Shown here: positions 4,516 through 26,674 of the stretch, piece by piece | How the letters are laid out: each line of letters opens with the position of its first letter | Numbering within the stretch: the stretch's first letter is position 1 | NCBI GenBank assembly: GCA_019113345.1 | Contig: DXHQ01000044.1 | Coordinates: 1 to 33,974, forward strand | DNA length: 33,974 bases | Source of the DNA: Candidatus Faecalibacterium intestinigallinarum | GTDB taxonomy: Bacteria > Bacillota > Clostridia > Oscillospirales > Ruminococcaceae | Reading direction: 5' to 3' | Program-made: the position numbers and the translations under genes | The notes under the pieces: generated by a model | What the model saw: only the letters and a program-made list of their open reading frames with translations | Told to the model about the DNA's origin: nothing | Database searches by the model: none

Positions 4516-4722
4516 AGCGTGTCGCGTCTGCGACACGCTCCAGGGGGAACCCATTTCTGCGCACAGTCGCGCGACAGAAATTCCTTCCCCCTGGTATCCC
4601 CCTGGGGACAAAATTTAGCGCAGAACCGCGCACTCGGCCCAAAGGGCCTCGCACACTCTCTGCGCTCAATTTCCCTGGTTGTGTCCCATCCATCCGCACA
4701 TGTCGGCTGGATGGGACTTTTT
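4516..4722 (+). repeat. Structured intergenic repeat, copy A
   Basis: This copy carries all parts of the four-copy family: hairpin 1 (AGCGTGTCGC/GCGACACGCT, 4516-4539), hairpin 2 (outer arms CCAGGGGGAA/TTCCCCCTGG with inner TTTCTG/CAGAAA), hairpin 3 (AGCGCAGA 4617-4624 with TCTGCGCT 4659-4666, enclosing GGCCC/GGGCC), and a terminal hairpin GTCCCATCCA/TGGATGGGAC (4683-4717) with loop CACATGT and a T-run. It is flanked by direct repeats GCGGGCTTTTGCAAGCCCT (4496-4514) and the same with one change (4731-4749). It lies between the pheS promoter and the 3' end of aspS, antisense to both. No coding function is evident. Its strand is set by the T-run. Confidence 0.85.
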
Positions 4723-4770
4723 GACGGTCTGCGGGTTTTTGCAAGCCCTTAACGTGTCGAAAGCGTCACG

Positions 4771-6105
4771 TCACGGGGTCAGCCGGTTGGGCCCGCGGAA
4801 CAGGAACATGCACTCCTTGATGCTCAGGCCCACCAGCAGCATAGTCAGCCGGTCGACGCCCAGGCCAAAGCCGCCGTGGGGCGGGCAGCCGTACTTGAAG
4901 AACTCAAGGTAGAACTTGACGTCCTCGGCCAGACCCTTCTCCTCGGCCTGCTTCTTCAGCACCTCGTAGCGGTGCTCGCGCTGGGCGCCGGTGGTGATCT
5001 CCACCCCGCGCCAGATCAGGTCGTAGCCCTGGGGCACGCCGTTCTCGTCCCGCATGTGGTAGAAAGCCCGCTTTTCGGCGTCGTAGTCGGTCACAAACAG
5101 GAACTCGTGGCCATAGTGCTTTTTGACCCAGTCGTAGCTCAGCCGCTCGGCCTCGGTGGTCAGGTCGCCCTTTTCAGCCTCGTCCACGGTATAGCCGAAG
5201 TCCTCTTCCAGTCCCTTGTACAGGTCGGCCAGCTTGACCACCGGGAAGGGGGTCTCGGGCACGATGACCGGCAGGCCGAACATCTCCTCGATCTCCTTGC
5301 CGTAGGCGTCCTTGACGGCCTGCAGGGCGGCTTTCAGCAGCTCCGCCTCCAGCTGCATGACGTCCCGGTAGGACTGGATGTAGCTGAACTCGAGGTCAAA
5401 GCCGGTGAACTCGGTGGTGTGCTTGTTGGTATAGGACTTCTCGGCGCGGAAGACCGGTCCCACCTCAAAGATCCGCTCAAAGCCGCTGGCCATGGCCATC
5501 TGCTTGTAGAACTGCGGGCTCTGGGCCAGGTAGGCGTCGCGGTCAAAGTAGTCGACCTTGAACACCTCCGCGCCGCTCTCGCTGGCGGCGGCGATCAGCT
5601 TGGGGGTGTGGATCTCGATGAACCGGTGGTCCAGCAGGTACTGGCGCATGGCGTTGACCATCACGGTCTGCGCCTTGAACATCAGCTGGTTCTCGTCGGT
5701 GCGCAGGTCGATCCAGCGGTAATCGATCCGCTGGTCGATGCTGGAGCGCTCCACCGCCTTCTTCTTTTTGGTGGCGGCGATCTCCTTGCGGACGATGGGC
5801 AGCGGATCGGCGATGCTCTCCACCTCGATCTGCTCGGGGATCATCTCGATGCCGCCCAGTTTGACGTAGTCGTCCAGACGCGCCTTGCCCACCACCGTGA
5901 TGACCGAATCGCCGGTCAGCTGGTCGATGACGGGGACCAGGTCGGGGTGGTCCTCTTTTTCAATGGTGATCTGCAGTTTGCCGGTGATGTCCTTGAGCAC
6001 GATGAAGGCCATCGCCTTGCTGCTGCGCAGGTTTTCGATAAAGCCCTGCACCTTGATGGTTTCGCCGACATGCGCGCGGACGTCGGCAAGATAAGTTCGA
6101 TCCAT
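4771..6105 (-). CDS. aspS: Aspartyl-tRNA synthetase, archaeal-type (possibly Asp/Asn non-discriminating)
   Basis: The 444-residue protein is a class IIb synthetase attaching aspartate to tRNA. An OB-fold anticodon-binding domain (about 1-105) precedes the catalytic core. Motif 2 appears as VFRAEKSYTNKHTTEF and motif 3 as GGFGLGVDRLTML, and the protein ends NRLTP. Its length, with no GAD insertion, marks the archaeal-type enzyme rather than the usual bacterial one of about 590 residues. In many Firmicutes this form also charges tRNA-Asn for the GatCAB amidotransferase route. Which applies here cannot be decided from the sequence alone, as no gat genes are in the window. The ATG follows GGGGAGGA. 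It has its own promoter and a palindrome at the start point. Confidence 0.93.
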   Translation of the reverse strand: MDRTYLADVRAHVGETIKVQGFIENLRSSKAMAFIVLKDITGKLQITIEKEDHPDLVPVIDQLTGDSVITVVGKARLDDYVKLGGIEMIPEQIEVESIADPLPIVRKEIAATKKKKAVERSSIDQRIDYRWIDLRTDENQLMFKAQTVMVNAMRQYLLDHRFIEIHTPKLIAAASESGAEVFKVDYFDRDAYLAQSPQFYKQMAMASGFERIFEVGPVFRAEKSYTNKHTTEFTGFDLEFSYIQSYRDVMQLEAELLKAALQAVKDAYGKEIEEMFGLPVIVPETPFPVVKLADLYKGLEEDFGYTVDEAEKGDLTTEAERLSYDWVKKHYGHEFLFVTDYDAEKRAFYHMRDENGVPQGYDLIWRGVEITTGAQREHRYEVLKKQAEEKGLAEDVKFYLEFFKYGCPPHGGFGLGVDRLTMLLVGLSIKECMFLFRGPNRLTP

Positions 6106-6140
6106 GCTGGTCCTCCCCAGTGTATCTCAATTTTGCATTT

Positions 6141-6157
6141 TGGCATACGGTATGCCA
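6141..6157. promoter_or_regulatory. Perfect 17-bp palindrome over the aspS transcription start (candidate operator)
   Basis: TGGCATACGGTATGCCA is an 8-bp perfect inverted repeat around one central base. It begins 3 bp downstream of the aspS -10 box and covers the predicted start point and first transcribed bases, where a repressor would block initiation. It could instead form a small hairpin in the 5' UTR. The DNA-binding partner is unknown. Confidence 0.5.
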
Positions 6158-6160
6158 CAA

Positions 6161-6189
6161 ATTATAGTATACTTCCCGGGCAAAATCAA
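6161..6189 (-). promoter_or_regulatory. aspS promoter
   Basis: The minus strand has TTGATT (6189-6184), a 17-bp spacer and a perfect TATAAT (6166-6161). The -35 region overlaps the tail of the terminator of the upstream CBS-domain gene. No T-box sequence is visible in the short leader, unlike pheS. Confidence 0.8.
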
Positions 6190-6214
6190 GGGGGACCCGC
6201 GAAACGGGCCCCCT
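6184..6214 (-). terminator. Terminator of the CorC-like gene
   Basis: Just after the stop of the CBS-domain gene the minus strand reads AGGGGGCCCG, a short loop, CGGGTCCCCCT and then TTGATTTT. The arms pair with one bulged T. Its T-rich tail doubles as the -35 region of the aspS promoter. Confidence 0.75.
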
Positions 6215-6219
6215 TTGGG

Positions 6220-7551
6220 TCAATCTTCTTTTTTGTCCGCCTCACCCTGGTCGAAGGGCTGGCGGGTCTTTTCCACCACGGCGGTGTCGACGCGGTGGCC
6301 GGTCACATTCTTGACGTTGATCTTCAGGCCGTAGCCCTCGCAGCTGAACTGTTCGCCCTCGTCGGGCACCCGGCCCACAATGCCGCAGACCAGGCCGTTG
6401 AAGGTCTCGTGCTCGTCGGTGGGCAGCTGGACGTCCAGCTTTTCGGCCACCTCTTCCAGGTCGGCCGAGCCGCGGATCTCCCAGCGGTCCTCGCCCAGCT
6501 GGCGGATCTCCACCTCGCGGACGGTGTCCTCATCGTCCATGTTGCCCACCAGTTCCTCCATCAGGTCGTGGACGGTGACGATGCCGCTCATCCCGCCGTA
6601 CTCGTCGATGACGATGGCGAAGTATTTGCGTTCCTGCTTCATCCGGCTGAACAGCTGGTCGGCCCGGATGCCCTCGGGCACAAAGAAGGGCTTATCCACC
6701 GCGTTCTTCATCACCGACTTGCGGGACAGATCGTCCAGGCGGAAGTAATCCTTGGTGTTCAGCACGCCCACCACGTCGTCCTGGCTCTCGCCGCAGACGG
6801 GGAAGTAAGTATAGTGGCTGCCCCGGATGGTGTCGGCCCAGACGCTCATGTCGTCCTCCAGGTACAGGCAGACCACGTCGCGGCGGCGGGTGCTGACCTC
6901 CTCGGCGGAGGTATCGTTCATATCAAAGACGTTCTGGATGATCTCATTCTCATCGTTTTCGATGGTGCCCTGCTGGCTGCCCTCCATCAGCATCATCTTG
7001 ATCTCGTCCTCGGTCACCACCTCGTCATTCTGGTTGGGGTCGATGCCCAGCAGCCGCAGCAGCGCGTTGGTGGACACGGTCAGCAGCCAGACCAGCGGGG
7101 CGCAGATCTTGGACATAAAGAAGAGGATGCCGGACAGGCTCAGCGACAGGCTCTCGGTCTTTTTCATGGCCAGCCGCTTGGGCACCAGCTCGCCGAAGAC
7201 GATGCTGAAGTAGGTCAGCACCAGGGTGATGAGGAACACCACCACCGAGTGGGCCGCCGATCGGGGGATATTCACGCCCAGCGACAGCACCAGATCCACA
7301 ATGGGGTCGGCGAAGTTCTCAGCCGCAAAGGCGCCGCCCAGCAGACCGGCCAGGGTGATGGCCACCTGGATGGTGGCCAGGAACTTGGCCGGCTGTTTGG
7401 TCAGGTTCAAAAGGCGTTTGGCCCGCTTGTCGCCCTCCTCGGACAGCATCTTGAGCCGTGCCTCGCTCATCGAGATCACCGCGATCTCCGAGCTGGCAAA
7501 CAGCGCGTTGACCGCGATCAGAACAATTTGGATAATCAGTGCGCCAATCAT
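6220..7551 (-). CDS. CNNM/CorC-family membrane protein (HlyC/CorC transporter, CBS pair)
   Basis: The 443-residue protein has the three-part HlyC/CorC layout. An N-terminal DUF21 (CNNM) domain spans about 1-195, with hydrophobic segments at the start (IGALIIQIVLIAVNALFAS), about 60-80, 105-125 and 150-175. A CBS-domain pair follows at about 200-335 (MSVWADTIRGSHYTYFPVC, then IDEYGGMSGIVTVHDLMEEL). A C-terminal CorC_HlyC domain occupies about 345-425. Members are linked to magnesium or cobalt efflux and metal tolerance; older hemolysin names are probably misleading. The substrate cannot be told from sequence. The ATG follows GGAGAAAG and overlaps the stop of a possible upstream small ORF as ATGA. 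A consensus promoter lies about 200 bp upstream. Confidence 0.92.
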   Translation of the reverse strand: MIGALIIQIVLIAVNALFASSEIAVISMSEARLKMLSEEGDKRAKRLLNLTKQPAKFLATIQVAITLAGLLGGAFAAENFADPIVDLVLSLGVNIPRSAAHSVVVFLITLVLTYFSIVFGELVPKRLAMKKTESLSLSLSGILFFMSKICAPLVWLLTVSTNALLRLLGIDPNQNDEVVTEDEIKMMLMEGSQQGTIENDENEIIQNVFDMNDTSAEEVSTRRRDVVCLYLEDDMSVWADTIRGSHYTYFPVCGESQDDVVGVLNTKDYFRLDDLSRKSVMKNAVDKPFFVPEGIRADQLFSRMKQERKYFAIVIDEYGGMSGIVTVHDLMEELVGNMDDEDTVREVEIRQLGEDRWEIRGSADLEEVAEKLDVQLPTDEHETFNGLVCGIVGRVPDEGEQFSCEGYGLKINVKNVTGHRVDTAVVEKTRQPFDQGEADKKED

Positions 7552-7724
7552 AAATCTTTCTCCATTCTCTCACTGTTATGTGTGTTACGCAAAAAAGCAC
7601 AGTCCGCCGCTTGCAAAAGCGCAGACCATGCCCTTATAAGTTCAACCGATTCATAACAATGCGCCGCGGAGAAACAAAGGCCGCCGTATGGGGATCCCCA
7701 TCCGAACCGTCTTCCATGGACCAA
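7548..7724 (-). CDS. Possible small ORF upstream of and overlapping the CorC-like gene
   Basis: A TTG at 7724 stands 5 nt after GGGAGG and opens a 58-codon frame. It ends in TGA overlapping the ATG of the next gene (TTATGA), an arrangement seen in translational coupling. The peptide begins (M)VHGRRFGWGSPYGG and ends NTHNSERMEKDL, with four cysteines and no clear membrane segment. A second, shorter frame from the ATG at 7714 is less well spaced from the same site. The region has the only long untranslated leader in this operon, and a 14-bp palindrome ATGGGGATCCCCAT lies within it (7688-7701). It could equally be non-coding leader. I recognise no homologue. Confidence 0.35.
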   Translation of the reverse strand: MVHGRRFGWGSPYGGLCFSAAHCYESVELIRAWSALLQAADCAFLRNTHNSERMEKDL

Positions 7725-7755
7725 TCACACCTCCCAATCTGTGTAAATTAGGAGT

Positions 7756-7784
7756 ATTATACCACAGGCCGGTCCGTTTGTCAA
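7756..7784 (-). promoter_or_regulatory. Full-consensus promoter for the CorC-like gene
   Basis: The minus strand has TTGACA (7784-7779), a 17-bp spacer and TATAAT (7761-7756), a perfect sigma-A consensus. The upstream boundary of structured repeat copy B begins only 16 bp away. Confidence 0.88.
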
Positions 7785-7800
7785 CTTGTATCCAAGTTTC

Positions 7801-8122
7801 AGCGTGTCGCAAAAGCGCCACGCTCCAGGGGGGACCCTTTTCTGCCTGCTGCGCAGGTCAGAAAACCTCTTGGTTGCGGTGCCCTGTTTTTGCTGCGCCC
7901 GTCGCAGCGGGCTTGCAAAAAGCAGACCGCGGCCCCTGCTCCGCTTCGGCTGCTTCTGCCGCAGGCAGCGCCTCAGCTTCGCAGTCCCCTGGTATCCCCC
8001 TTTTAGACAAAATTGAGCGCAGAACCGCGCACTCGGCCCAAAGGGCCTCGCACACTCTCTGCGCTCAATTTTCCTGTCGGTGTCCCGGCCGTACGCACAT
8101 GTCGTCCGGCCGGGACTTTTTT
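7801..8122 (+). repeat. Structured intergenic repeat, copy B (expanded)
   Basis: This copy has hairpin 1 (AGCGTGTCGC/GCGCCACGCT), the CCAGGGG...CCCCTGG outer stem, hairpin 3 (GAGCGCAGA/TCTGCGCTC) and the terminal hairpin GTCCCGGCCG/CGGCCGGGAC (8082-8116) with T-run. Inside hairpin 2 it carries about 115 extra bases (about 7868-7984), themselves rich in inverted repeats such as GCTGCG/CGCAGC and TTTTTGC/GCAAAAA. It is flanked by CAACTTGTATCCAAG (7782-7796) and CAACTTATATCCAAG (8132-8146). It lies between the CobW-like gene's 3' end and the CorC promoter, antisense to both. No gene is seen in this intergenic stretch. Confidence 0.82.
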
Positions 8123-8157
8123 GACAGTCTGCAACTTATATCCAAGGTTTTCGGCTT

Positions 8158-9117
8158 TTACACGGGCAGCTCGGCCCCGAGGGCGTCCGCGATGGCCTGC
8201 CGGTCCAGCCCCTCGCCGATGACGATGAGCACCGCCTGCCCCTCCCGGATGGGCCGCAAGGCAAAGCTGTCCCGCGCCGCGTTCAGTTCCAGCCAGCCGC
8301 CCGGCGTCTGCAAAAAGCCCTTGACCCGGAAGACCCTGCCGCAGGCGGCGTTCCCCCACAGGGCCTGCACCCGGCGGCGCAGCTCTTCGGGCGCACAGTC
8401 CATCCCGAGAAAGCAGAGCGACTCAAAGCCGCCGGCATCCGTCAGCCCATCCGGCCGCCGCTTGGCAAAGCGGGCCTGCCGCCAGCCGCAGCCGGCCAGC
8501 CGGGCAAAGTCGGCGTCGGTCAGGCTGGCCCAGTCCCTGGCCAGGACGTCCTCCCCCGTCCCGAACCGCCGGGCGCAGCCCACCGCCTGGAGGGCCCGGT
8601 CCAGACGGGCCAGGGCGGCGGCGACCTTTTCTTCTCCCGCCTCCCCCGCCCTGCTCAGGACGACGCAGCCGGCGCTCGCCGCCTCGCTGGCCAGCAGGTA
8701 GGCGGCCGCCGGAGAGAGCTCCTCTTCCAGCCCGGCGTCCAGAATGGCGATGACGCTGCCCGGCTCATACCACCGGTCAAGCGGCGCTTCGCACAGCGCG
8801 TCGAAAAACTCGTCCACGTCGTAGATGCCGGACGGCTCGACCAGTACCCGGTCGTACCCCAGCATCCCCATGGCGATCAGCTTGGTGCGGAAACGCCGCC
8901 TGTGGCAGTCGGCGTCGCACCCGCCCGCGATCATGTCCAGGTCGCACTGCGGCCCTTCCAGGTCCTGCAAAAGCATCCGGTCGACGTTGACCGCGCCGTA
9001 ATCGTTTTCCAAAATGCCGATCTTCTGCCCCTGCGCCATCAGCCAGCGGGCATAGGCGTGGATAAACGTAGTTTTCCCCGCCCCGAGAAATCCGGTGATG
9101 AGGTCGATCTTGATCAT
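8158..9117 (-). CDS. CobW/P47K-family (COG0523) nucleotide-binding protein
   Basis: The 319-residue protein starts with a clear P-loop, ITGFLGAGKTT (residues 7-17), followed by LENDYGAVNVD (switch region) and LVEPSGIYDVDEF. A C-terminal CobW_C-like part spans about 225-310. COG0523 proteins are GTPases that insert or deliver metals or cobalamin precursors. Two features differ from the usual pattern. The metal-binding GGCxCC motif is replaced by GGCDADCH (Cys67 and Cys71). The guanine-specifying NKxD is replaced by LSRAG near residue 155. It starts 6 bp after the stop of the preceding membrane gene, so it belongs to a three-gene operon. A link to those membrane proteins is inferred from context only. 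Confidence 0.85.
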   Translation of the reverse strand: MIKIDLITGFLGAGKTTFIHAYARWLMAQGQKIGILENDYGAVNVDRMLLQDLEGPQCDLDMIAGGCDADCHRRRFRTKLIAMGMLGYDRVLVEPSGIYDVDEFFDALCEAPLDRWYEPGSVIAILDAGLEEELSPAAAYLLASEAASAGCVVLSRAGEAGEEKVAAALARLDRALQAVGCARRFGTGEDVLARDWASLTDADFARLAGCGWRQARFAKRRPDGLTDAGGFESLCFLGMDCAPEELRRRVQALWGNAACGRVFRVKGFLQTPGGWLELNAARDSFALRPIREGQAVLIVIGEGLDRQAIADALGAELPV

Positions 9118-9123
9118 ATCGGG

Positions 9124-9468
9124 TCAGTCTCTCCAATCTCCATAGTGCTTTTTGTACTTTTTGCGGATCACCAGCGCATAGACCGCCCGGCAGGCCGCCG
9201 CCTCCCCCGCGATCCCCGCCACCATCAGCCAGGCGGCCCACCCCGGGATGGGCGCTGCAAGCAGCGGCAGCCCCAGCAGGATGAACACCGCGCCATAGAC
9301 CATATAGAGTTTTGCCACCGCGTGATTGTATCGCTTCCGATCGGTCACTTCCAGCGGACGGGAAGAAAAGGAAACAGGCTTTTTGCAAAACCATATGTAC
9401 ACGGCCAGCCCCTCAAAAAAGAGCCCCGCCGCGCTCCAGCCAAGAAAGGACAGCAGATTTTTGTCCAT
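9124..9468 (-). CDS. Small integral membrane protein, unknown function
   Basis: The 114-residue protein has three hydrophobic stretches: residues 5-25 (LLSFLGWSAAGLFFEGLAVY), about 52-70 (LYMVYGAVFILLGLPLL) and about 73-95. It ends in a basic tail (RKKYKKHYGDWRD). The internal layout, one helix, a polar KKPVSF...DRKRYNHAVAK stretch, then a helix pair, resembles DUF3784-like small membrane proteins, but I cannot assign a family firmly. The ATG at 9468 is chosen for GGGAGGTGG just upstream; the frame stays open further upstream through the neighbouring gene. Middle gene of the operon that ends with the CobW-like protein. Confidence 0.75.
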   Translation of the reverse strand: MDKNLLSFLGWSAAGLFFEGLAVYIWFCKKPVSFSSRPLEVTDRKRYNHAVAKLYMVYGAVFILLGLPLLAAPIPGWAAWLMVAGIAGEAAACRAVYALVIRKKYKKHYGDWRD

Positions 9469-9488
9469 CGGACCACCTCCCACTCTTT

Positions 9489-9776
9489 TTACTTCCGGCT
9501 TCTTTTCCGGCGGATCTTCTGCACCGCCGTCCAGAGTGCCCAGGCCATCAGGGCGGCCAGCACAAGCAGGCCGACGCCCCTGCCGGTCTCTCCCTGCCGG
9601 ATGCACCAGCTCCCGGCCCCAAGGCAAAGCGCCAGCAGGGCCGCACAGAGGATTGCAAACAGCCATACCACTGCTTTGCAGAAGATCCAGCACCATTTCG
9701 GCATCCCCTTGAGCTCGGCAAAGTCGAGGCCGAAAGCAAAGACGCCTCCCAGAATATCCAAAAGCCAGTCCAGCAT
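9489..9776 (-). CDS. Small membrane protein, unknown function
   Basis: The 95-residue protein has two strong membrane segments (about 28-52, WIFCKAVVWLFAILCAALLA, and about 66-84, GVGLLVLAALMAWALW) and a basic C-terminus (KIRRKRSRK) suggesting a cytoplasmic tail. It contains several cysteines. The ATG follows AGGGAGAAGG and lies about 30 bp downstream of a good promoter, so it is the first gene of the operon. It begins 20 bp before the 114-residue membrane gene. No family recognised. Confidence 0.72.
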   Translation of the reverse strand: MLDWLLDILGGVFAFGLDFAELKGMPKWCWIFCKAVVWLFAILCAALLALCLGAGSWCIRQGETGRGVGLLVLAALMAWALWTAVQKIRRKRSRK

Positions 9777-9811
9777 ACGACCTTCTCCCTTCAGGCGCAG
9801 ACTTTTCCTAT

Positions 9812-9840
9812 AGTGTAGAAGAATCGCCGGCGGGTGTCAA
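9812..9840 (-). promoter_or_regulatory. Promoter of the small-membrane-protein / CobW operon
   Basis: The minus strand has TTGACA (9840-9835), a 17-bp spacer and TACACT (9817-9812). It directly precedes the 95-residue gene. Confidence 0.82.
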
Positions 9841-9859
9841 GCGGCCGGGAAGAGAAAAG

Positions 9860-9882
9860 CCCCCGGCCGAAACCGGAGGCGG
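9860..9882 (-). terminator. Terminator of the MFS gene
   Basis: After the MFS stop the minus strand has GCCTCCGG, loop TTTC, GGCCGGGGGC and TTTTCTC. The stem is short but GC-rich and is followed by a T-rich stretch. Confidence 0.6.
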
Positions 9883-9898
9883 ACGTTGTATCAGGTTA

Positions 9899-11089: not shown

Positions 11090-11174
11090 AAAAACCTCCC
11101 ATTGTCCCCTCCCGGTTTCGCCGGCTTTTGCCCCTGCAGGGCCAGCGCCGCGGCAAAGAGGGATCCCGAAAGAT

Positions 11175-11203
11175 AGAATACAGCCAAGCCCCTCTTGATT
11201 CAA
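11175..11203 (-). promoter_or_regulatory. MFS gene promoter
   Basis: The minus strand has TTGAAT (11203-11198), a 17-bp spacer and TATTCT (11180-11175). Its -35 box shares bases 11198-11200 with the -35 box of the divergent araC-type promoter. Confidence 0.65.
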
Positions 11204-11223
11204 TGCAAAAAACGCCCTATACT
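11195..11223 (+). promoter_or_regulatory. AraC-type regulator promoter
   Basis: The plus strand has TTGATT (11195-11200), a 17-bp spacer and TATACT (11218-11223). It is divergent from, and overlaps at the -35 with, the MFS promoter, so one bound regulator could affect both. Confidence 0.75.
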
Positions 11224-11267
11224 ATAAACAAAACGACCAAAACCCACCCACGCACAAGGAGGCTGTC

Positions 11268-12173: not shown

Positions 12174-12259
12174 CAAACAAAGCCGCGCCCTTTGTGAATG
12201 AACTGCACCCTATTTGTTAGACAGTATGGTATACTGGATAACAAGTGGGGTGCTTTATT

Positions 12260-12610
12260 ATGCCAAAAGGAATACCGAACAAACGCTACACGCCGGAATT
12301 TAAGCAACTGGTAGTAGAGACAATGCGAAAGGAACACATAAGTGTTCGCGAAGCGATGCGAAGGTTTGAGATCAACAACCATGGCATCATTGAACGGTGG
12401 GAGCGGATCTATCTTGAAGAAGGGCCGGAAGGATTGGCGATCGAACGGCGAGGGCGAAAAAATAGCAGCCGGTCTGCCGAGTTGTCTAAGACGGTTGAAG
12501 AAGACCTGATCGCCGAGAACCAGCGGCTGCGCGCGGAGAACGAATACCTAAAAAATTTGCAAGCCTTGGTTTTGGAAGAAGAGCGACGCCGGCACAGAAA
12601 ACGCAGGTGA
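12260..12610 (+). CDS. IS3-family transposase OrfA
   Basis: The 116-residue product binds the IS ends. It begins MPKGIPNKRYTPEFKQLVV, with a helix-turn-helix (VREAMRRFEINNHGIIERWE, about 33-52) and a C-terminal leucine-zipper-like helix (LIAENQRLRAENEYL). The start at 12260 excludes a short upstream extension of the frame. The heptamer A AAA AAT at 12550-12556, in the correct phase, would allow a -1 shift into orfB to make the OrfAB transposase. Confidence 0.92.
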   Translation: MPKGIPNKRYTPEFKQLVVETMRKEHISVREAMRRFEINNHGIIERWERIYLEEGPEGLAIERRGRKNSSRSAELSKTVEEDLIAENQRLRAENEYLKNLQALVLEEERRRHRKRR

Positions 12611-13449
12611 TCCAAACACTGAGGCTGAAATATCCGTTATTGCTTCTGCTTGAAATCGCTCAGCTGCCCAGAGCAACCTTTTACTACTATTTGAAACGGA
12701 TGCAACGGGCAGACAAATATGCAGGGGCAAAAGAAGAAATCGCCGCTATCTACCACGAAAATAAAGGAAGATACGGATATCGGCGTATCACTATGGTACT
12801 TCACAGCCGAGGATTTCTCCTGAACCACAAGACTGTTCAGCGGATGATGAAAGAACTGGGCTTGGTTTGTCGTGTCAGAGTCAAGAAATATCGCTCTTAC
12901 AAAGGAGAAGTGGGCAAGATTGCGCCCAATCTGCTGAACAGAAACTTCCATGCGGAAAAACCAAATCAAAAGTGGGTCACCGATGTGACAGAGTTCAGCT
13001 TGTTTGGTCAGAAACTCTATCTTTCTCCAATCCTGGATCTGCACAATGGGTATTTGGTGAGCTATGCTATCTCTGACCGACCGGTTTTAAGCATGGTAAC
13101 AACTATGCTCACCAAAGCCTTTGAAACCATACCGGATGCAACCGGACTGGTTCTCCACTCTGACCAAGGCTGGCAATACCAGCACAAGCAGTACCAACGT
13201 ATGCTGCATGTGAAAGGTATTCGGCAGAGTATGAGCCGCAAAGGGAACTGTCTGGACAATGCGGTGGCAGAAAACTTCTTCGGCTTACTCAAGAGTGAAC
13301 TGCTTTATCTGCAAGAATTTGAGTCTATGAAACACTTCAAGCAGGAACTTGTGAATTATCTTGAGTATTACAACAACCGCAGAATTAAGACAAAACTAAA
13401 GGGCTTGCCGCCCGCTATTCACAGACAACAAGCCCTTTCGGCTGCTTAA
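12607..13449 (+). CDS. IS3-family transposase OrfB (DDE integrase core)
   Basis: The 280-residue frame carries the rve/DDE catalytic core. The three acidic residues are visible in WVTDVTEF, VLHSDQGWQY and CLDNAVAENFFGLLKSE. An HTH_21-type segment (HENKGRYGYRRI) precedes the core. The same frame is open back to the slippery site near 12550 without a stop, so the active protein is probably an OrfA-OrfB fusion made by frameshifting; the isolated ATG at 12607 overlaps the orfA stop by 4 nt. No disabling mutation is seen. Confidence 0.94.
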   Translation: MIQTLRLKYPLLLLLEIAQLPRATFYYYLKRMQRADKYAGAKEEIAAIYHENKGRYGYRRITMVLHSRGFLLNHKTVQRMMKELGLVCRVRVKKYRSYKGEVGKIAPNLLNRNFHAEKPNQKWVTDVTEFSLFGQKLYLSPILDLHNGYLVSYAISDRPVLSMVTTMLTKAFETIPDATGLVLHSDQGWQYQHKQYQRMLHVKGIRQSMSRKGNCLDNAVAENFFGLLKSELLYLQEFESMKHFKQELVNYLEYYNNRRIKTKLKGLPPAIHRQQALSAA

Positions 13450-16643: not shown

Positions 16644-16655
16644 ACAATTCCTTTC

Positions 16656-18954: not shown

Positions 18955-18983
18955 TTGTCATTTCATGGCGTTTCTGCTACACT
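18955..18983 (+). promoter_or_regulatory. Promoter of the peptide-binding lipoprotein gene
   Basis: The plus strand has TTGTCA (18955-18960), a 17-bp spacer and TACACT (18978-18983), about 36 bp before the TTG start codon. Confidence 0.78.
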
Positions 18984-19018
18984 GGGGGTGTATCTTCTTG
19001 ACAGAAAGGACGCAAACC

Positions 19019-20584: not shown

Positions 20585-20612
20585 CCAATCACAGAAACAA
20601 GGAGGGTTTGCC

Positions 20613-21386
20613 ATGAAGATCGCCGTGGTGACCGGCGCGTCCAGCGGGCTGGGCCGGGAATTTGTCCGCCAGCTGGCCCGGCAGGAAAAGCAGCTGGAGG
20701 AGATCTGGGTGATCGCCCGCCGGCAGCCTCAGCTGGAGGCCCTGCGCCGGGAAAGCCCCGTCCCCCTGCGGGTGCTGGCCATGGACCTTGCCGCCGACGG
20801 CGCGGCCGGCCGGCTGGAAGCCGCTCTCGCCGCAGCCCGGCCCGAGGTGTCGGTGCTGGTCTGCGCGGCGGGCTTCGGGCGGATGGGAGACTACCGGCAG
20901 GTCTCCCGGCAGGACAGCGCCGCCATCATCCGGCTCAACTGCACCGCCGCCGTCGAGGTGACCATGGCCTGCCTGCCCTACATGAAGGCGGGCGGCCGCA
21001 TCCTGGAGATCTGCTCGACCGCGGCTTTCCAGCCCTTCCCCTATCTGAACGTCTATGCCGCGAGCAAGGCGTTCCTCTACCGGTACAGCCTGGCCCTCGG
21101 CCGGGAGCTGCGCCGCCGGCGCATCACGGTCACTGCCGTCTGCCCCTACTGGGTCAAGGACACCGCCTTTATCCCGACGGCGACGCCGGCCGCCGGGACG
21201 CCGGCCGTCCGGCACTTTCCGCTTGCCTCCCGCAGCCGCCGGGTGGTGGCCCGCGCCCTGCTGGACAGCCGGCGGGGCCGCGCCGTCTCCACCCCCGGTC
21301 CCGTCTGCACCTTCCACCGCGCCGCCGCCAAAGCCCTGCCCGCCGGCATTCTGATGTCCGCCTGGGAAGTGCTGCGCAAAATATAG
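20613..21386 (+). CDS. Short-chain dehydrogenase/reductase
   Basis: The 257-residue protein has the Rossmann cofactor motif TGASSGLG near the N-terminus (residues 8-15), the NADP/NAD-binding LVCAAGFG region, and the catalytic YAASK (about residues 148-152), with the serine in EICSTAAF. It resembles the DltE/YqjQ-like classical SDRs. The substrate is unknown. The ATG follows AAGGAGGG. The gene is 28 bp after the lipoprotein gene and is followed by a terminator, so the two probably form a transcript. Confidence 0.9.
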   Translation: MKIAVVTGASSGLGREFVRQLARQEKQLEEIWVIARRQPQLEALRRESPVPLRVLAMDLAADGAAGRLEAALAAARPEVSVLVCAAGFGRMGDYRQVSRQDSAAIIRLNCTAAVEVTMACLPYMKAGGRILEICSTAAFQPFPYLNVYAASKAFLYRYSLALGRELRRRRITVTAVCPYWVKDTAFIPTATPAAGTPAVRHFPLASRSRRVVARALLDSRRGRAVSTPGPVCTFHRAAAKALPAGILMSAWEVLRKI

Positions 21387-21402
21387 CGTCCTCCACCTTT
21401 TT

Positions 21403-21465
21403 GCCCCGCTGTCCAAAAGATTGCACACCAACATTTTTTCACAGGGAGACGGACGGGGCTTTTTT
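21403..21465 (+). terminator. Terminator after the SDR gene
   Basis: GCCCCG (21403-21408) can pair with CGGGGC (21454-21459), with GTCC/GGAC as an alternative extension, across a long intervening loop, and is followed by a T-run. The long loop makes it less certain than the others. Confidence 0.6.
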
Positions 21466-21551
21466 GTGTTTTCTGCGCAGGAACGATGATTTAAGGCGCA
21501 AATTTTCACAACTGTATCACAAACTGCGTCCTGGGACGGCTGCGCGATGCC

Positions 21552-21580
21552 TTGTTGTTTTTTGCCGGATATGCTATAAT
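21552..21580 (+). promoter_or_regulatory. Promoter of the double-glycine-leader gene pair
   Basis: The plus strand has TTGTTG (21552-21557), a 17-bp spacer and TATAAT (21575-21580), with TGC directly before the -10 box (extended -10). The 250 bp between the SDR stop and the first small gene hold only the terminator and this promoter. Confidence 0.8.
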
Positions 21581-21637
21581 CGGGGTAACCCAGTTCCCGC
21601 GGCCTGCTGCGGGGCCTACTTGAAAGGAGCCCTACTT

Positions 21638-22084
21638 ATGGAATATACCACTACTTCGGGCACGCTTGCCATGCCCGCGCACTACGCCCTTGTCCCGCAG
21701 GAGGAAATGGTCTACCTCGACGGCGGCGCACTGTTCAACATCACCCAGGAGCAGGTCATCCAGTTCGGCGTCAACGTCGTGGTCAACGGCCTGATGTTCC
21801 TCGGCGGCGCGTTCTTCTCGGCCGGGGTGGCCATGGTCACCAACGCCTTTGTGGGCACCACCCTCAAATCCGGCGGCAAGATCATGAAGGACTTCTTCTC
21901 TTCCCTCAACAGCCACCAGTGGGTGATGCTGGGCGTCACCGGCCTGCTGGGCGGCCTGTACGGCCTGAGCATGGCGTCCTACTACTATATGCAGCTGGTC
22001 GACCCGCTGGTCAAGGCCTTCCAGGATGCGTTTGCCGCGCCCGCGCAGACCACCGAGGCCGGCGCCCTGCCCGCAGCTGCCTGA
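21638..22084 (+). CDS. Small membrane protein with double-glycine-type leader (first of a pair)
   Basis: The 148-residue protein begins with a polar 30-residue segment ending EEMVYLDGG. Val at -12, Glu at -8, Met at -7, Leu at -4 and GG at -2/-1 match the classical double-glycine leader cut by peptidase-containing ABC exporters. After the GG come two hydrophobic regions (about 42-70, rich in Gly, Val and Phe, and about 94-113, VMLGVTGLLGGLYGL) and an Ala-rich tail. The segment LAMPAHYALVPQEEMVYLDGG aligns without gaps with the next gene. The ATG follows TGAAAGGAG. It may be an exported bacteriocin-like or signalling peptide precursor, but 148 residues is long for that and no exporter or immunity gene is nearby. 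Family not recognised. Confidence 0.8.
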   Translation: MEYTTTSGTLAMPAHYALVPQEEMVYLDGGALFNITQEQVIQFGVNVVVNGLMFLGGAFFSAGVAMVTNAFVGTTLKSGGKIMKDFFSSLNSHQWVMLGVTGLLGGLYGLSMASYYYMQLVDPLVKAFQDAFAAPAQTTEAGALPAAA

Positions 22085-22131
22085 CGCCGCTTTCTCTCTT
22101 CGCGCATCTCATCAAGAAAGGAGCTGTTTGT

Positions 22132-22392
22132 ATGCAGAATCTTCGTATGCCTGCGCACTGCGCCCCCATCGACCCCGCCGAGCAGCGCGCCCTCACCGGC
22201 GGCGGCCCTGTCACCGAGGCGGTCGGCGCCTTCCTCGACAGCCTGCATCTGACCGATTTCTATCGGGGTTCCTCGGTGCTGGCCTTCTCCTTCACCTTTG
22301 TGCCCGCCCTCTTCTTCACGGCGGCGCGGGCCGTCTTTGGCCTGGGCCAGGAGCTGGCCGAGGGCATCTACAACATTCTCCAGCAACTCTAA
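22132..22392 (+). CDS. Small membrane protein with double-glycine-type leader (second of a pair)
   Basis: The 86-residue protein starts MQNLRMPAHCAPIDPAEQRA and then LTGGG. Its leader shares L-x-MPAH-x-A, the Glu at -8, Leu at -4 and the GG with the preceding gene, and Ile stands at -12. After the glycines a 62-residue mature part holds an acidic stretch (VTEAVGAFLDSLHLTDFY) and one hydrophobic helix (about 43-65, SVLAFSFTFVPALFFTAARAVF). The mature part is unrelated to that of its partner. The ATG follows AAGAAAGGAG and lies 47 bp after the first gene. Structured repeat copy C begins 8 bp after the stop and may end this transcript. Function unknown; a two-peptide secreted system is one possibility. 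Confidence 0.78.
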   Translation: MQNLRMPAHCAPIDPAEQRALTGGGPVTEAVGAFLDSLHLTDFYRGSSVLAFSFTFVPALFFTAARAVFGLGQELAEGIYNILQQL

Positions 22393-22399
22393 AGCATTT

Positions 22400-22586
22400 C
22401 CAGGGGGGACCCATTTCTGCCTGCATACGCAGGTCAGAAATCCTTCCCCCCTGGTATCCCCCTTTTAGACAAAATTTGCCGCAGAACCATGCACTCGGCC
22501 CGAGCGGGCCTCGCACACTCTCTGCGTCAAATTTCCCTGTATGTGTCCCGCCCGTCCGCACATGTCGGCCGAGCGGGACTTTTTTT
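22400..22586 (+). repeat. Structured intergenic repeat, copy C
   Basis: This copy lacks hairpin 1 but has hairpin 2 (CCAGGGGGG/CCCCCCTGG enclosing TTTCTG/CAGAAA and CCTGC/GCAGG), hairpin 3 (CGCAGA/TCTGCG) and the terminal hairpin GTCCCGCCCG/CGAGCGGGAC (one C-A mismatch) with loop CACATGT and seven Ts. It lies directly after the double-glycine-leader pair in the sense direction, so here it could serve as their terminator. No flanking direct repeat was found. Between it and galK (22587-22832) only a weak promoter candidate is seen. Confidence 0.85.
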
Positions 22587-22737
22587 ATCACTGCGCACTG
22601 CACCGTTCCCTTCCGGCCAAACATCCTAAAAGCTCTTTTCGGTGCGGAGAAGTTTTTGTGAAAAGCAACTTCCATATCAGCTGTGCAGCCCGGCCCGGTT
22701 TTTTGCCAACTTTGCATCAACAGGCAACAATAATACA

Positions 22738-22766
22738 TTTCATTTTGTCCCGAAATCCTTTATAGT
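22738..22766 (+). promoter_or_regulatory. Candidate galK promoter
   Basis: TTTCAT (22738-22743) and TATAGT (22761-22766) are separated by 17 bp. The -35 box is weak; TTGTCC with TAAGAT at 16 bp is an alternative in the same region. No operator repeat was noticed. Confidence 0.4.
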
Positions 22767-22832
22767 TAAGATGTAGAAACCCCCGGGGCCGCTCCTTCGG
22801 CCCCCGCACCGTGTGTTAAGGAGGATACCAAC

Positions 22833-24116
22833 ATGAAGGATGTCCGTATTTGGAAAGAGGAGCTGGCCGCAGGCGTCCACGCCGCCCGTCTTGCCTCCCT
22901 CTACTGCTGCGCGCCCGAGGACACCGCGCCCCAGGCGGCACGCTACGCCGCCGCCCTCGACGGGCTGGAGGCCGCTTTCGGCCCCCACCCGGCCGCCGCT
23001 CTGTTCAGCGCGCCGGGCCGCACCGAGATCGGCGGCAACCACACCGACCACCAGCACGGCCGGGTGCTGGCCGGCAGCGTCAACATTGATATGATCGCGG
23101 CCGCCGGCCCCAACGAGCTGGGCCAGCTGCGGGTCCAGAGCGAGGGGTATCCCCTGTGCACCATCGACCTGGCCGACCTCGCCGCCCGCAAGGAAGAGGA
23201 AAACACGAGCGCCGCCATCCTGCGGGGCGAGTGCGCCGCCTTTGCTCAGCGCGGCGCGCATCTGGCCGGCCTCGACGTCTATGTCACCTCCAACGTGCCC
23301 AAGGGCAGCGGCGTTTCCTCCAGCGCCGCCTACGAGGTGCTGATCGGCACCATCCTGAACGAGCTGTTCATGGAGGAAAAGGTCAGCCCCATCGCCATCG
23401 CCCAGATCGGCCAGTGGGCCGAAAACGTCTACTTCGGCAAGCCCTGCGGCCTGATGGACCAGATGGCCTCCAGCGTCGGCAACATCATCACCATCGACTT
23501 TGCCGACCCCGAAAAGCCGGTGGTCGAGCCGGTCGAGGTCGACTTCTCCAAGGCGGGGCTGGCCCTGTGCATCCTCGATTCGGGCGCCGACCACGCCGAC
23601 CTGACCGACGAGTACGCCGCCATCCCGGCCGACTGCCGCGCGGTGGCCGCCGTCTGCGGCGGCGACGTGCTGCGCAATGTCCCCTTCGAAACCTTCCTGG
23701 CCAACATCCCCGCCTGCCGCAAGGCCTGCGGCGACCGGGCCGTCCTGCGCGCCTTCCACATCTACGCCGACAACGAGCGTGTGGCAAAGCAGGTGGCCGC
23801 CCTCCGTGCGGGCGACTTCGAGACCTTCCTCGCCCTGGTCAACGAGTCGGGCCGCAGCAGCTGGGAATACCTGCAGAACGTCATCCCCGCCGGCTACACC
23901 AAGCACCAGGAGGTGGCCGTCACCATCGCGGCGGCCAAGCACCTGCTCGGCGGCGAAGGGGCTGTCCGGGTCCACGGCGGCGGCTTTGCCGGCACCGTCC
24001 AGGCCTTTGTCCCCCTCGACAAGCTCGCATCGTTCAAAGCCGGCATCGAAGCCATCATCGGCGAGGGCCGGTGCCATGTTCTCTCCATCCGCCCCGAAGG
24101 AGGTGCCGTTCTGTGA
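22833..24116 (+). CDS. galK: Galactokinase
   Basis: The 427-residue GHMP kinase phosphorylates galactose to galactose-1-phosphate, the first step of the Leloir pathway. The galactokinase signature is visible as APGRTEIGGNHTDHQHG, the ATP loop as NVPKGSGVSSSAAYEV, and the C-terminal GHMP motif as VRVHGGGFAGTVQAF. GLMDQMASSVG contains the conserved catalytic-region aspartate. The ATG follows AAGGAGGATACC. The stop codon overlaps the GTG start of galT, so the two are translationally coupled. No galE or galM is in the window. Confidence 0.96.
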   Translation: MKDVRIWKEELAAGVHAARLASLYCCAPEDTAPQAARYAAALDGLEAAFGPHPAAALFSAPGRTEIGGNHTDHQHGRVLAGSVNIDMIAAAGPNELGQLRVQSEGYPLCTIDLADLAARKEEENTSAAILRGECAAFAQRGAHLAGLDVYVTSNVPKGSGVSSSAAYEVLIGTILNELFMEEKVSPIAIAQIGQWAENVYFGKPCGLMDQMASSVGNIITIDFADPEKPVVEPVEVDFSKAGLALCILDSGADHADLTDEYAAIPADCRAVAAVCGGDVLRNVPFETFLANIPACRKACGDRAVLRAFHIYADNERVAKQVAALRAGDFETFLALVNESGRSSWEYLQNVIPAGYTKHQEVAVTIAAAKHLLGGEGAVRVHGGGFAGTVQAFVPLDKLASFKAGIEAIIGEGRCHVLSIRPEGGAVL

Positions 24117-25612
24117 TTTCCAATACCATCCAGCAGCTGGTCAACTACGGCCTTGATACCGGCCTCATCCAGCCCGACGACGAGATCTACATCCGCAACC
24201 AGCTGCTCATGACCATGGGTCTGGACAGCTTTGAGGAGCCGGAGGGCGACTGCTACTACGTCGACCTCGAGAGCATCCTCACCGCCCTGGTGGACGACGC
24301 GGTGGCCCGCGGCGTCTGCGAGGACAACTCGGTCGCCCGCGACCTCTTCGACACCAAACTGATGGGGGTGCTCACCCCGCGGCCCAGCATCGTGCGGGCC
24401 AACTTCTGGGAAAAGTATGAGGAAGAGAGCCCCCGCGCCGCCACCGACTGGTTCTATGCGTTCTGCCAGGACGCCGACTACATCCGCCGCTACCGGATCA
24501 AGAAGGACCTCAAGTGGGTCACTTCCACCCCCTACGGCGACCTGGATATCACCATCAACCTCTCCAAGCCCGAAAAGGATCCCAAGGCCATTGCGGCGGC
24601 CAAGCTCGCCCCCCAGAGCGCCTACCCCAAGTGCCAGCTCTGCATGGAGAACGAGGGCTACGCCGGCCGGATGAACCATCCCGCCCGCGAGAACCACCGC
24701 ATCATCCCCATCACCATCAACGACAGCGACTGGAACTTCCAGTACAGCCCCTACGTCTACTACAACGAGCACTGCATCGTCTTCAACAGCGAGCACACCC
24801 CCATGAAGATCGAGCGTGCCACCTTCCGCAAGCTGCTGGACTTTGTCGAGCAGTTCCCCCACTACTTTGTGGGCAGCAACGCCGACCTGCCCATCGTAGG
24901 CGGCAGCATCCTCAGCCACGACCATTTCCAGGGCGGTCACTACGAGTTCGCCATGGCCAAGGCCCCCATCGAAAAGCCCTGGACCTTCCCCGGCTATGAA
25001 GAGGTCGAAGCCGGCATCGTCCGCTGGCCGATGAGCTGCATCCGGCTGACGAGCGAAGACGACGAGAAGCTGGTCGACCTGGCCGACAAAATTCTGACCG
25101 CCTGGCGCGGCTACTCGGACGAGAGCTGCTTTATCTTTGCCGAGACCGACGGCGAGCCCCACAACACCATCACCCCCATCGCCCGGATGCGGGACGGCAA
25201 GTACCAGCTCGACCTGGTGCTGCGCAACAACATCACCACCGCCGAGCATCCGCTGGGCGTCTTCCACCCCCACGCCAAGCTCCACCACATCAAGAAGGAG
25301 AACATCGGTCTGATCGAGGTCATGGGCCTGGCCGTCCTGCCCAGCCGCCTCAAGGCCGAAATGGCCGAGCTGGAGGTCGCCCTCGCGGCCCGCACCCCCG
25401 TCGAACAGTACGGCGAAGCCATCCAGAAGCACGCCGAGTGGGCGGGCGAAGTCCTGGCCCGCCACCCCGAGCTGGATGCCGGCAACGTCCACGCCATCGT
25501 GGAAGAGGAGATCGGCCACGTCTTTGCCCAGGTGCTGGAGGACGCCGGCGTCTACAAGCGGGACGAGGCAGGCCAGGCAGGCTTTGTCCGCTTCCTGGAG
25601 AGCGTGAAGTAA
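24113..25612 (+). CDS. galT: UDP-glucose--hexose-1-phosphate uridylyltransferase, class II
   Basis: The 499-residue enzyme exchanges galactose-1-phosphate with UDP-glucose, the second Leloir step. The length and the signature GSILSHDHFQGGHYEFAM, with the active-site His-x-His, identify the Firmicute class II GalT rather than the shorter E. coli type. The start is GTG at 24113 overlapping the galK TGA by 3 nt and preceded by AGGAGGTG. It ends one base before the cutC ATG, so galK-galT-cutC form a compact operon. Confidence 0.95.
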   Translation: MISNTIQQLVNYGLDTGLIQPDDEIYIRNQLLMTMGLDSFEEPEGDCYYVDLESILTALVDDAVARGVCEDNSVARDLFDTKLMGVLTPRPSIVRANFWEKYEEESPRAATDWFYAFCQDADYIRRYRIKKDLKWVTSTPYGDLDITINLSKPEKDPKAIAAAKLAPQSAYPKCQLCMENEGYAGRMNHPARENHRIIPITINDSDWNFQYSPYVYYNEHCIVFNSEHTPMKIERATFRKLLDFVEQFPHYFVGSNADLPIVGGSILSHDHFQGGHYEFAMAKAPIEKPWTFPGYEEVEAGIVRWPMSCIRLTSEDDEKLVDLADKILTAWRGYSDESCFIFAETDGEPHNTITPIARMRDGKYQLDLVLRNNITTAEHPLGVFHPHAKLHHIKKENIGLIEVMGLAVLPSRLKAEMAELEVALAARTPVEQYGEAIQKHAEWAGEVLARHPELDAGNVHAIVEEEIGHVFAQVLEDAGVYKRDEAGQAGFVRFLESVK

Positions 25613-25613
25613 G

Positions 25614-26390
25614 ATGTCCCACAACATTTTGGAAGTCTGCGTCGACAGCACCGCCAGCGCCCTGGCCGCCAGGGCCGGCGGGGCCGACCGGCTGGAACTC
25701 TGCGCCGACCTCGCCGTCGGCGGCACCACCCCCAGCGCCGCCCTGGTCTGGCAGGTCAAGGCCGAGACGGGGCTGCCCGTCCGGGCCCTGCTCCGCCCCC
25801 GCGCCGGGGACTTCTGCTACGACCGGTGGGAGCTGGCCCAGATGGAAGCCCTCGCGGCCGAACTGGTGGCCGCCGGGGCCGACGGCATCGTCACCGGGGT
25901 GCTGACCCCTGCGGGCGACCTCGACCTTGACGCCATGCAGCGCATCTGCAGCTCGGCCCGCAAGGCGGCCCGGCAGGCCGGCAGGCCGGTGGTGGTCACC
26001 CTCCACCGCGCCTTCGACGTCTGCCGCGACGCCACCCTCTGCCTGGAGGGCGCCTGTGAATTGGGCCTTGCCACCATCCTGACCAGCGGCCAGGCCGCCT
26101 CGGCCTGGGAGGGCCGGGCCCTGCTGGCCCGCCTGCAGCAGCAGGCGGCCGGCCGCATCGAGATTCTGGCCGGCGCCGGCGTCAACGCCCGGAATATCCC
26201 GGCCCTCGTCCGGGAGACGGGGGTCACCGCCTGCCACCTCTCGGGCAAAAAGCGGATCCCCAGCCGGATGGTCTTCCGCCGGGAAGGGGTGCCGATGGGC
26301 CTGCCCGGCTTTGACGAGTTCGAGCTCTGGCAGACCGACTCCGACGCCGTCCGTGCCGCCCGCGCGGCCCTCGACGCCCTCTCCGACTGA
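25614..26390 (+). CDS. cutC: CutC family protein (copper homeostasis protein CutC)
   Basis: The 258-residue protein has a TIM-barrel fold. MSHNILEVCVDSTASAL...GADRLELCADLAVGGTTPS is the characteristic CutC N-terminus, and VRALLRPRAGDFCY, TLHRAFDVCRD and ILTSGQAASAWEG are conserved family segments. CutC has been linked to copper handling, but the biochemical role is unsettled and a sugar-related role would fit its place in a galactose operon; that is inference only. It starts one base after the galT stop and is followed by a hairpin. Confidence 0.92.
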   Translation: MSHNILEVCVDSTASALAARAGGADRLELCADLAVGGTTPSAALVWQVKAETGLPVRALLRPRAGDFCYDRWELAQMEALAAELVAAGADGIVTGVLTPAGDLDLDAMQRICSSARKAARQAGRPVVVTLHRAFDVCRDATLCLEGACELGLATILTSGQAASAWEGRALLARLQQQAAGRIEILAGAGVNARNIPALVRETGVTACHLSGKKRIPSRMVFRREGVPMGLPGFDEFELWQTDSDAVRAARAALDALSD

Positions 26391-26412
26391 CATTTTCTTT
26401 CTCCTTATACAA

Positions 26413-26467
26413 CGGACCGCCCCGGATTTCCTGGTTTCTGCCAGGATACCCGGGGCGGTCTGTGTTT
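26413..26467 (+). terminator. Terminator of the galK-galT-cutC operon
   Basis: ACCGCCCCGG and CCGGGGCGGT form the base of a long hairpin, extended by TTCCTGG/CCAGGATA around a short loop. The following CTGTGTTT is only moderately T-rich. Repeat copy D starts immediately after it. Confidence 0.75.
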
Positions 26468-26674
26468 AGCGTGCCGCAAAAGCGTCACGCTCCAGGGGGG
26501 ACCCATTTCTGCCTGCATACGCAGGTCAGAAATCCTTCCCCCCTGGTATCCCCCTTTTCGACAAAATGAAGCGCTGAACTGTGCACGCGGCTTTGTAGCC
26601 GCGCACACTCTCAGCGCTCCATTTCCCTGTATGTGTCCCGCTCGTACGCACATGTCGTCCGAGCGGGACTTTTT
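26468..26674 (+). repeat. Structured intergenic repeat, copy D
   Basis: This copy has hairpin 1 (AGCGTGCCGC/GCGTCACGCT), hairpin 2 (CCAGGGGGG/CCCCCCTGG), hairpin 3 with swapped bases (AGCGCTGA/TCAGCGCT) enclosing a long arm (GTGCACGCGGCT/AGCCGCGCAC), and the terminal hairpin GTCCCGCTCG/CGAGCGGGAC with loop CACATGT and a T-run. It lies between the convergent cutC and U32-peptidase genes. The changes relative to the other copies keep the pairing intact. Confidence 0.85.

Follow-up and report, generated by a model that had tools for sequence, protein, structure and literature searches.

A chain-of-hairpins repeat in Faecalibacterium, probably a BOX-like mobile element that inserts at terminator hairpins and duplicates its target

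A stretch of 33,974 nucleotides (nt) from Candidatus Faecalibacterium intestinigallinarum (contig DXHQ01000044.1, positions 1 to 33,974 of the forward strand), hereafter the window, carries four copies (A to D) of a structured intergenic repeat, all on the plus strand and within a few nt of the places assigned to them, in one shared orientation, by a first-pass annotation of the same DNA. We read this repeat, with a probability of about 0.77, as a BOX-like non-autonomous mobile element which inserts at hairpins, often the terminator of the upstream gene, duplicates its target and keeps its own hairpins. The ends, the insertion against a hairpin, the orientation and the target duplication hold for part of the copies, and some copies are demonstrable mobile-element insertions with target duplication; therefore, mobility and structural constraint go together in this family. 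In the clear cases the resulting order is gene, hairpin, element, hairpin.

The element follows the plan H0, H1, optional modules M, H2 enclosing H3, H4, a T run and GACAGTCTG. H0 reads AGCGTGTCGCAAAAGCGACACGCT in many copies, H1 is made of the arm CCAGGGGG plus an inner hairpin, H2 encloses H3 as GACAAAAT...ATTTCCCTG, and H4 bears the loop GCACATGTC, followed in many copies by TTTTTTGACAGTCTG or a relic thereof. The flank, gene and stem tests were run on 98 hand-picked copies of about 170 bits or more, duplicates left out; six with flanks below 75 nt were omitted from the repeat test, four with flanks below 120 nt from the stem test and seven without a called left gene from the orientation count. 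A TTTT run closes H4 in 83 of the 98 and is missing from 15, and an H0-like hairpin is scored in 72 of 94, its sequence being sometimes changed and in a few cases including the upstream stop codon. One or two extra hairpin modules (M, M2) lie between H1 and H2 in many copies, those of genus g79 showing, by eye, a similar module at the same place, and the unpaired motifs are conserved, across genera too. In the window the parts are arranged as follows.

4539-4722, 7824-8121, 22399-22584 and 26491-26674, plus strand: cores of elements A, B, C and D, respectively
4497..4514, plus strand: left target copy of element A, with the small hairpin CGGGCTTTTGCAAGCCCT; a single related copy in relatives
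4516..4731, plus strand: element A, with H0 at 4516-4539, the H1-H4 core at 4539-4722 and the right end GACGGTCTG at 4723-4731
4732..4749, plus strand: right target copy of element A
7782..7796, plus strand: left target copy of element B (CAACTTGTATCCAAG)
7801..8131, plus strand: element B, with H0 at 7801-7824, H1 from 7824 and H2-H4 to 8121
7870..7988, plus strand: module M (119 nt), a nested repeat that separates H1 from H2 in element B; these genomes contain similar sequence at other places
8123-8131, plus strand: right end of element B, GACAGTCTG
8132..8146, plus strand: right target copy of element B (CAACTTATATCCAAG)
22399..22584, plus strand: element C, H1-H4, without classical H0, 7 nt past the stop codon of an upstream plus-strand open reading frame (ORF)
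26468..26678, plus strand: element D, with H0 at 26468-26491, the core at 26491-26674 and a degenerate right end

Copies A, B and C match the query D at E <= 6e-31 in a plain DNA search. The 3' limit of A and B lies about 9 nt past the end noted earlier, reaching GACGGTCTG and GACAGTCTG, and B is longer than the other window copies because the 119-nt second repeat (7870-7988) is nested between its hairpins 1 and 2.

Insertion can be followed at sites A and B, which are flanked in the window by repeats of 18 and 15 nt, respectively. The target of B stands twice in the window, once and exact in the relatives G004 and G016, and once in G008 (first 14 nt) and G021 (first 13 nt); at site A, a GGGTTTTGCAAGCC-type related sequence is found once in seven relatives (G001, G004, G008, G013, G016, G021 and G024) and twice in the window. 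By eye, G016 holds a full copy in opposite orientation within the same intergenic region as A and G004 a remnant of the element, both adjoining the end of an asnS-type gene. Across the collection, a flanking repeat (score of at least 28) accompanies 16 of 92 copies, with 6 of 1840 among mismatched flank pairs, and 23 of 158 H4-anchored sites against 5 of 625 controls, these being the sites left once identical keys had been merged and 26 of 184 with short left flanks set aside; L054, among the 23, seems to be a chance hit, and a control with a score of 144 seems to be a single locus present twice. A search of all loci collected for the study for AGnnTGYC...GACAnnCT-like ends with a flush repeat, over 120-9000 base pairs (bp), yielded 20 rows, which come from 11 loci and in every case represent this element at 173-325 bp. 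The inverted ends occur at all 11 loci, short and imperfect; they are best in L338 (AGACTGTC...GACAGGCT), and the right end of L335 is degenerate. Duplications extend to other genera (L307, 34 nt; L325, 31-32 nt; L308, 23 nt), to family f18 (L335, 40 nt; L338, 24 nt) and to a viral contig (L356, 37 nt), with scores of 75 for L335, 43 for L338, 75 for L356, 52 for L325 and 41 for L308 against a maximum of 34 in 210 mismatched pairs; ten other distant loci listed in the same scan, among them L307 with its H4 missed there, gave nothing above control.

The duplicated targets are often complete terminator hairpins. The 24 listed duplications measure 15-41 nt (median 26.5), a predicted hairpin spans at least 75% of the length in 21, and 15 fall in the lowest 1% of shuffles by energy; duplication of the whole hairpin is clear at L057, L235, L307, L231, L325, L088, L099 and L028. 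Among the 59 copies lying at least 45 nt past the upstream stop codon, or with no gene called, 30 show a stem score of at least 7 against H0, a value reached by 3 of 470 shuffles, 1 of 279 upstream windows, 3 of 91 right flanks and 1 of 35 copies near the stop. With genes called by a codon-usage script, 77 of 91 copies share the orientation of the gene upstream of them, and 49 of 87 lie between convergent gene pairs.

The arms of these hairpins change together. The exchanges described by the first-pass annotation in the terminal hairpin (ATCCA/TGGAT in A, GGCCG/CGGCC in B, GCTCG/CGAGC in D) and the swap in hairpin 3 from CAG/CTG (A) to CTG/CAG (D) are all present; the view taken there, that structural selection and not simple recent duplication explains the repeat, agrees with strong covariation and had missed the insertions with target duplication. 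In 111 aligned copies, 97.9% of 6153 pair cells (56 pairs) are paired, compared with 30-47% in slid structures, and both-sided changes occur in 750 cells against a shuffled mean of 239 (standard deviation 17; 500 shuffles), involving 38 of the 56 pairs. This alignment favours structure because it was fitted to the model; an unfitted MAFFT alignment of 30 copies gave both-sided changes in 27 of 56 pairs. By type, 5988 of the 6153 cells are Watson-Crick, 37 G-U, 83 A-C and 45 other, with many G-C to C-G swaps in the stems. RNA and cruciform structure, both offered as the object of selection, still stand; the G-U cells, fewer than the A-C cells, speak against a purely plus-strand RNA constraint, in a comparison where pair cells are not independent of one another and the contrast by pair is small (any G-U in 21 of 56 pairs, any A-C in 26).

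Orthologous copies, defined as pairs sharing both junctions, were sought by rechecking five candidate pairs with similar flanks. A count over all five (23 double and 4 single changes) was dropped, as only three pairs share both junctions; across the 168 base pairs of these three, 6 changes are double and 4 single, and 38 of 210 unpaired positions changed. In the two diverged pairs, L039/L137 and L047/L123, there are 6 double changes and 1 single change in 112 pairs, with 34 of 142 unpaired positions changed, a rate at which, by our estimate, chance would have altered about 47 of the 112 pairs. In this small sample, copies at orthologous loci seem to keep their pairing and to regain it over time.

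In the source genome (2.21 Mb, 130 contigs), a plain DNA search returned 41 matches to copy D. The covariance-model search of this genome and its relatives that had been suggested with the first description was carried out with a model built from 30 copies and gave 121 matches at home, 64 of them at 80 bits or more, with 150 of 1065 candidates scored; many of the weaker ones are the palindromic first hairpin read on the opposite strand, and two of the 64, which lie at contig ends (C26 and C88), score identically and may be one copy. The 64 correspond to about one copy per 35 kb of assembly, fewer than the hundreds per genome expected at first. In the genus survey, 11 of 31 genomes had matches (3 to at least 43 each), compared with none of 30 other genomes in the same first draw, and in a pattern scan the records among the matches listed were mostly Candidatus Faecalibacterium gallistercoris, Ca. 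F. faecigallinarum and Faecalibacterium sp. An121 and An122, the rest of that majority group being other uncultured Faecalibacterium.

At the family level, with six candidates scored per genome, model R1 matched 14 of 396 genomes and 7 of 126 genera, 4 of the 14 only at E 1e-5 to 1e-3. By eye, copies from genera g79, g43, g84 and g131 follow the same plan, and the matches in g36 and g37 look like chance. At the order level, model R2 matched 11 of 394 genomes and 9 of 168 genera, 6 of the 11 only at E above 1e-7; the weak matches L309, L311, L312 and L332 look like chance, and L329 (E 1.5e-15) is a candidate match. Neither plasmids queried with the L307 element nor phages queried with element D gave a match, and the exact H2 pattern had none in viral contigs. 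A looser H4 pattern returned 16 stretches of viral contigs, of which, by eye, L343, L345, L350, L356 and L358 are the element and the rest chance, L343 and L358 being the same stretch. In L345 the element lies among apparent tail genes (by eye), and in L356:1-330 a full element lies between two copies of one hairpin, the first of which is preceded by the right end of another element. Contig DVON01000080.1, labelled Ca. Pullilachnospira, carries the element (L088) at a locus matching Faecalibacterium G021 (L240), and is probably misbinned.

Several observations weigh against the mobile-element reading and set its limits. Elements C and D show no detectable flanking repeat or target duplication; across the collection, 76 of 92 copies have no flanking repeat, which we assume to reflect decay or loss. 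Only 20 of 96 copies have the exact right end GACAnnCT no more than 25 nt away, and for the left end, AGnnTGYC at most 35 nt leftward, the figure is 51 of 94. The empty state at A and B is inferred by parsimony, because the relatives are other species and not strains. Five of the 24 duplications were trimmed or set by eye. The span measure is weak against shuffles, since with an energy of -6 or lower it gives 17 of 24 against 949 of 2400, and the energy test was therefore added; 9 of the 24 miss it at the 99% level. Three of them (L005, L002 and L055) do not surpass the average shuffle in folding or else span just part of a hairpin, the best match being with the 3' arm for the first two and with the 5' arm for the third. 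At L336 (family f14) the duplication, seen by eye and not picked up by the automated scan, leaves about 10 nt between the right end and the hairpin copy. As many as 35 of 94 copies lie less than 45 nt from a stop codon with no intervening terminator. As to the pairing, L060/L118 and L064/L135 were rejected as orthologues, their junctions revealing that the two members of each inserted separately next to one gene; L074/L128, the least diverged orthologous pair, shows 3 single and no double changes; and gene conversion between copies may be another source of the kept pairing. Finally, searches with RVT_1, NF033594 and the end pattern revealed no mobilising enzyme or autonomous partner, and the double cut at the hairpin proposed below is an inference.

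Under the BOX-like reading, we propose that a trans-acting enzyme would recognise the extruded hairpin, as a DNA cruciform or a single strand, and would cut the two strands at the two bases of the hairpin, so that fill-in would then copy it. The left hairpin copy would be parted from its T run and transcription from upstream would therefore run into the element, to stop at H4 or at the right hairpin copy; such an insertion would be nearly harmless and the element would become the 3' untranslated region (UTR) of the gene. The hairpins would be kept by structural selection, for use as host terminators or for the element's own mobilisation, or by template-switching correction. A stronger proposal, which we put forward tentatively and would not favour over its negation, is that of a new class of mobile element whose integrase reads DNA shape and cuts the terminator hairpin at both bases, the duplication length following the hairpin; it includes the persistence of the element as a near strictly Watson-Crick chain of hairpins in several families of one order and in viral contigs. 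Intrinsic terminators are natural safe harbours for insertion. If true, the element would be a natural setting in which to ask if terminator DNA is extruded as hairpins in cells and if shape can be the target of a transposition enzyme, and, with a family spread over several families of gut Clostridia, the evolution of hairpins could be traced at orthologous loci.

An ordinary miniature inverted-repeat transposable element (MITE) derived from a DDE insertion sequence, with incidental hairpins and a terminator preference that reflects tolerance of harmless sites, is a possible explanation that we consider doubtful. The short inverted AGnnTGTC ends, best in L338, the target duplications, the 64 listed matches with their patchy distribution (11 of 31 genomes of the genus) and the duplication undetectable in most copies, as in old MITE families, would all fit. 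DDE families, however, typically have near-fixed duplication lengths, whereas the length here ranges from 15 to 41 nt, with a tendency to match the hairpin, and the two diverged orthologous pairs lack the decay expected of dead MITEs. The searches for a parent element may also count against it. No longer element with the same ends was found in the collected loci or in 1.56 Mb of G108, complete host genomes not having been scanned; the G108 search found, besides L307, one chance match of 12 nt over a distance of 5.3 kb. The IS1202-type transposase NF033594 had no match over the cut-off in 31 genomes and six weak ones below it, in a survey that did not cover other DDE families, and an IS1202-like element was rejected on this ground. 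TTTGACAGTCTG has seven exact matches in the source genome (G000), six being this element and one apparently lying in a gene. Other elements ending in TTTGACAGTCTG were discarded, as 11 further contexts in G021 and G013 are genes, bare terminators and intergenic sequence, one of them (L261) an H4 remnant.

We also think it rather unlikely that the repeat is a family of host regulatory RNAs or 3' UTR terminators spread by recombination, with selection on RNA and mobility as a minor trait. The sense orientation (77 of 91), the TTTT at the end of H4 (83 of 98), the copies close to stop codons (35 of 94), the pairing kept at two diverged orthologous loci and the conserved unpaired motifs agree with it; target duplications and empty sites do not, nor does the absence of the T run from 15 of 98 copies, and the 37 G-U against 83 A-C cells reverse the expectation for a plus-strand RNA helix. 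The repeat was not recognised as a named family at the outset, and this holds for Rfam: release 15 has no match at gathering score in the window, a single weak match below threshold lying inside a gene, and nine distant loci matched only SAM and fluoride riboswitches outside the element.

Less probable still is that the covariation stems from hairpin correction, by template switching within quasi-palindromes, and not from selection. The 5988 Watson-Crick cells out of 6153, the many G-C to C-G swaps and L231, where the two target copies differ solely by one matched double change, are in line with such a process. Against it, the 3 single and 0 double changes of L074/L128 are those expected of slow compensation, and unpaired motifs conserved across genera need selection or a shared recognition partner. 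A retroelement resembling a short interspersed element, whose RNA copy is reverse-transcribed at a nicked terminator, is very unlikely: the variable duplication length, L055 and L063, which begin inside or after H0, and L326, read by eye as H4 alone with a 13-nt repeat, would suit it, but RVT_1, sought in 31 genomes, was found in just 1 of 8 element-bearing ones (G013; drafts, so incomplete), which led us to reject a reverse transcriptase partner, the clear insertions carry inverted ends, no G-U preference exists, and L055 and L057 also have no usual right end.

Other observations concern the parts and the surroundings of the element. The modules M and M2 (about 110-119 nt) form a second hairpin repeat family that is also present outside the listed R1 matches, sometimes as tandem copies (window 7870-7988; L175:1728-1846; L128:1559-1785; L106 and L107). 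A TATGCTATAAT-like -10 box directly precedes H0 in the left flanks of three copies (L072, L074:1501 and L128:4164), and such copies may therefore start a transcript rather than end one. L326 (G187:C18) consists, by eye, of the H4 module alone flanked by a 13-nt repeat of the terminator arm, and could be a copy truncated on its 5' side, with duplication, or a sub-unit that is itself mobile. At L214:3682-3834, H0 without H1 is followed by TTTAG and then by an apparent insertion sequence with the start of an IS5-type transposase and the contig end (by eye); we read this as an insertion into the element and discarded it as the element's partner. Within the window, a second H0-like stretch, AACGTGTCGAAAGCGTCACG, lies at 4751-4770, past the right target copy of A, as if part of a second unit had once been there. 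Element D sits between convergent genes, the 5' one presumably CutC-like by eye. Two ORFs at 12245-13449 resemble, by eye, an IS3-type transposase pair, and two small ORFs at 21671-22392, directly 5' of element C, have a leader-like start and a GG motif and are possibly bacteriocin-like (by eye).

Our search of open-licence PMC papers found no description of this element or of the duplication of a terminator hairpin on insertion. Group IIC introns also insert just 3' of intrinsic terminators, as self-splicing RNAs with a reverse transcriptase and no target duplication; the duplication found here speaks against an intron of this kind, and 7 of the 8 element-bearing genomes searched gave no RVT_1 match. 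IS1202-type elements share the long target duplications and bring their own transposase, unlike the present element, with no NF033594 match over the cut-off in 31 genomes. REP/BIME sequences are palindromes of 20-40 bp mobilised by RAYT transposases, whereas clear insertions here measure 173-325 bp and contain several hairpins. The bcr1 repeats of the Bacillus cereus group have traits of mobile elements and differ in their short TTTAT duplications, our element duplicating terminator hairpins. They are alike in being structured and interspersed in one bacterial group, and a table of sizes and copies in a study of stem-loop repeat families gives a length of about 150-170 bp (PMC2267715). With MITEs (for a review, PMC10969869) the element has in common terminal inverted repeats and target-site duplication, the latter in a minority of copies (16 of 92). 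SPRITE of Streptococcus pneumoniae, as presented in part of PMC3049150, is a single 18-bp duplex with a U-rich tract, terminator-like and enriched between convergent genes; the element shares this enrichment and differs in having four to five hairpins and in inserting next to an existing terminator. The closest known kind, likened by architecture and not by sequence, is BOX of S. pneumoniae and S. suis, in the same part of that source a short repeat found between genes of Firmicutes, with a modular build whose internal modules are optional and a predicted stem-loop, from a set of nested repeat families that are over-represented between convergent genes and regarded as non-autonomous and mobile (PMC3049150). 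The same modularity is seen here in M and M2 between H1 and H2, along with structure, nesting and enrichment between convergent genes. In contrast to BOX, for which that part of the source describes no duplication of a whole hairpin target, the element duplicates its target hairpin, ends in AGnnTGTC, uses terminator hairpins as targets and occurs in several genera. On this view it is a small, probably non-autonomous element whose target duplication is unusual and whose pairs have evolved in almost strictly Watson-Crick form; confirmation of hairpin-reading integration might make it a class of its own.

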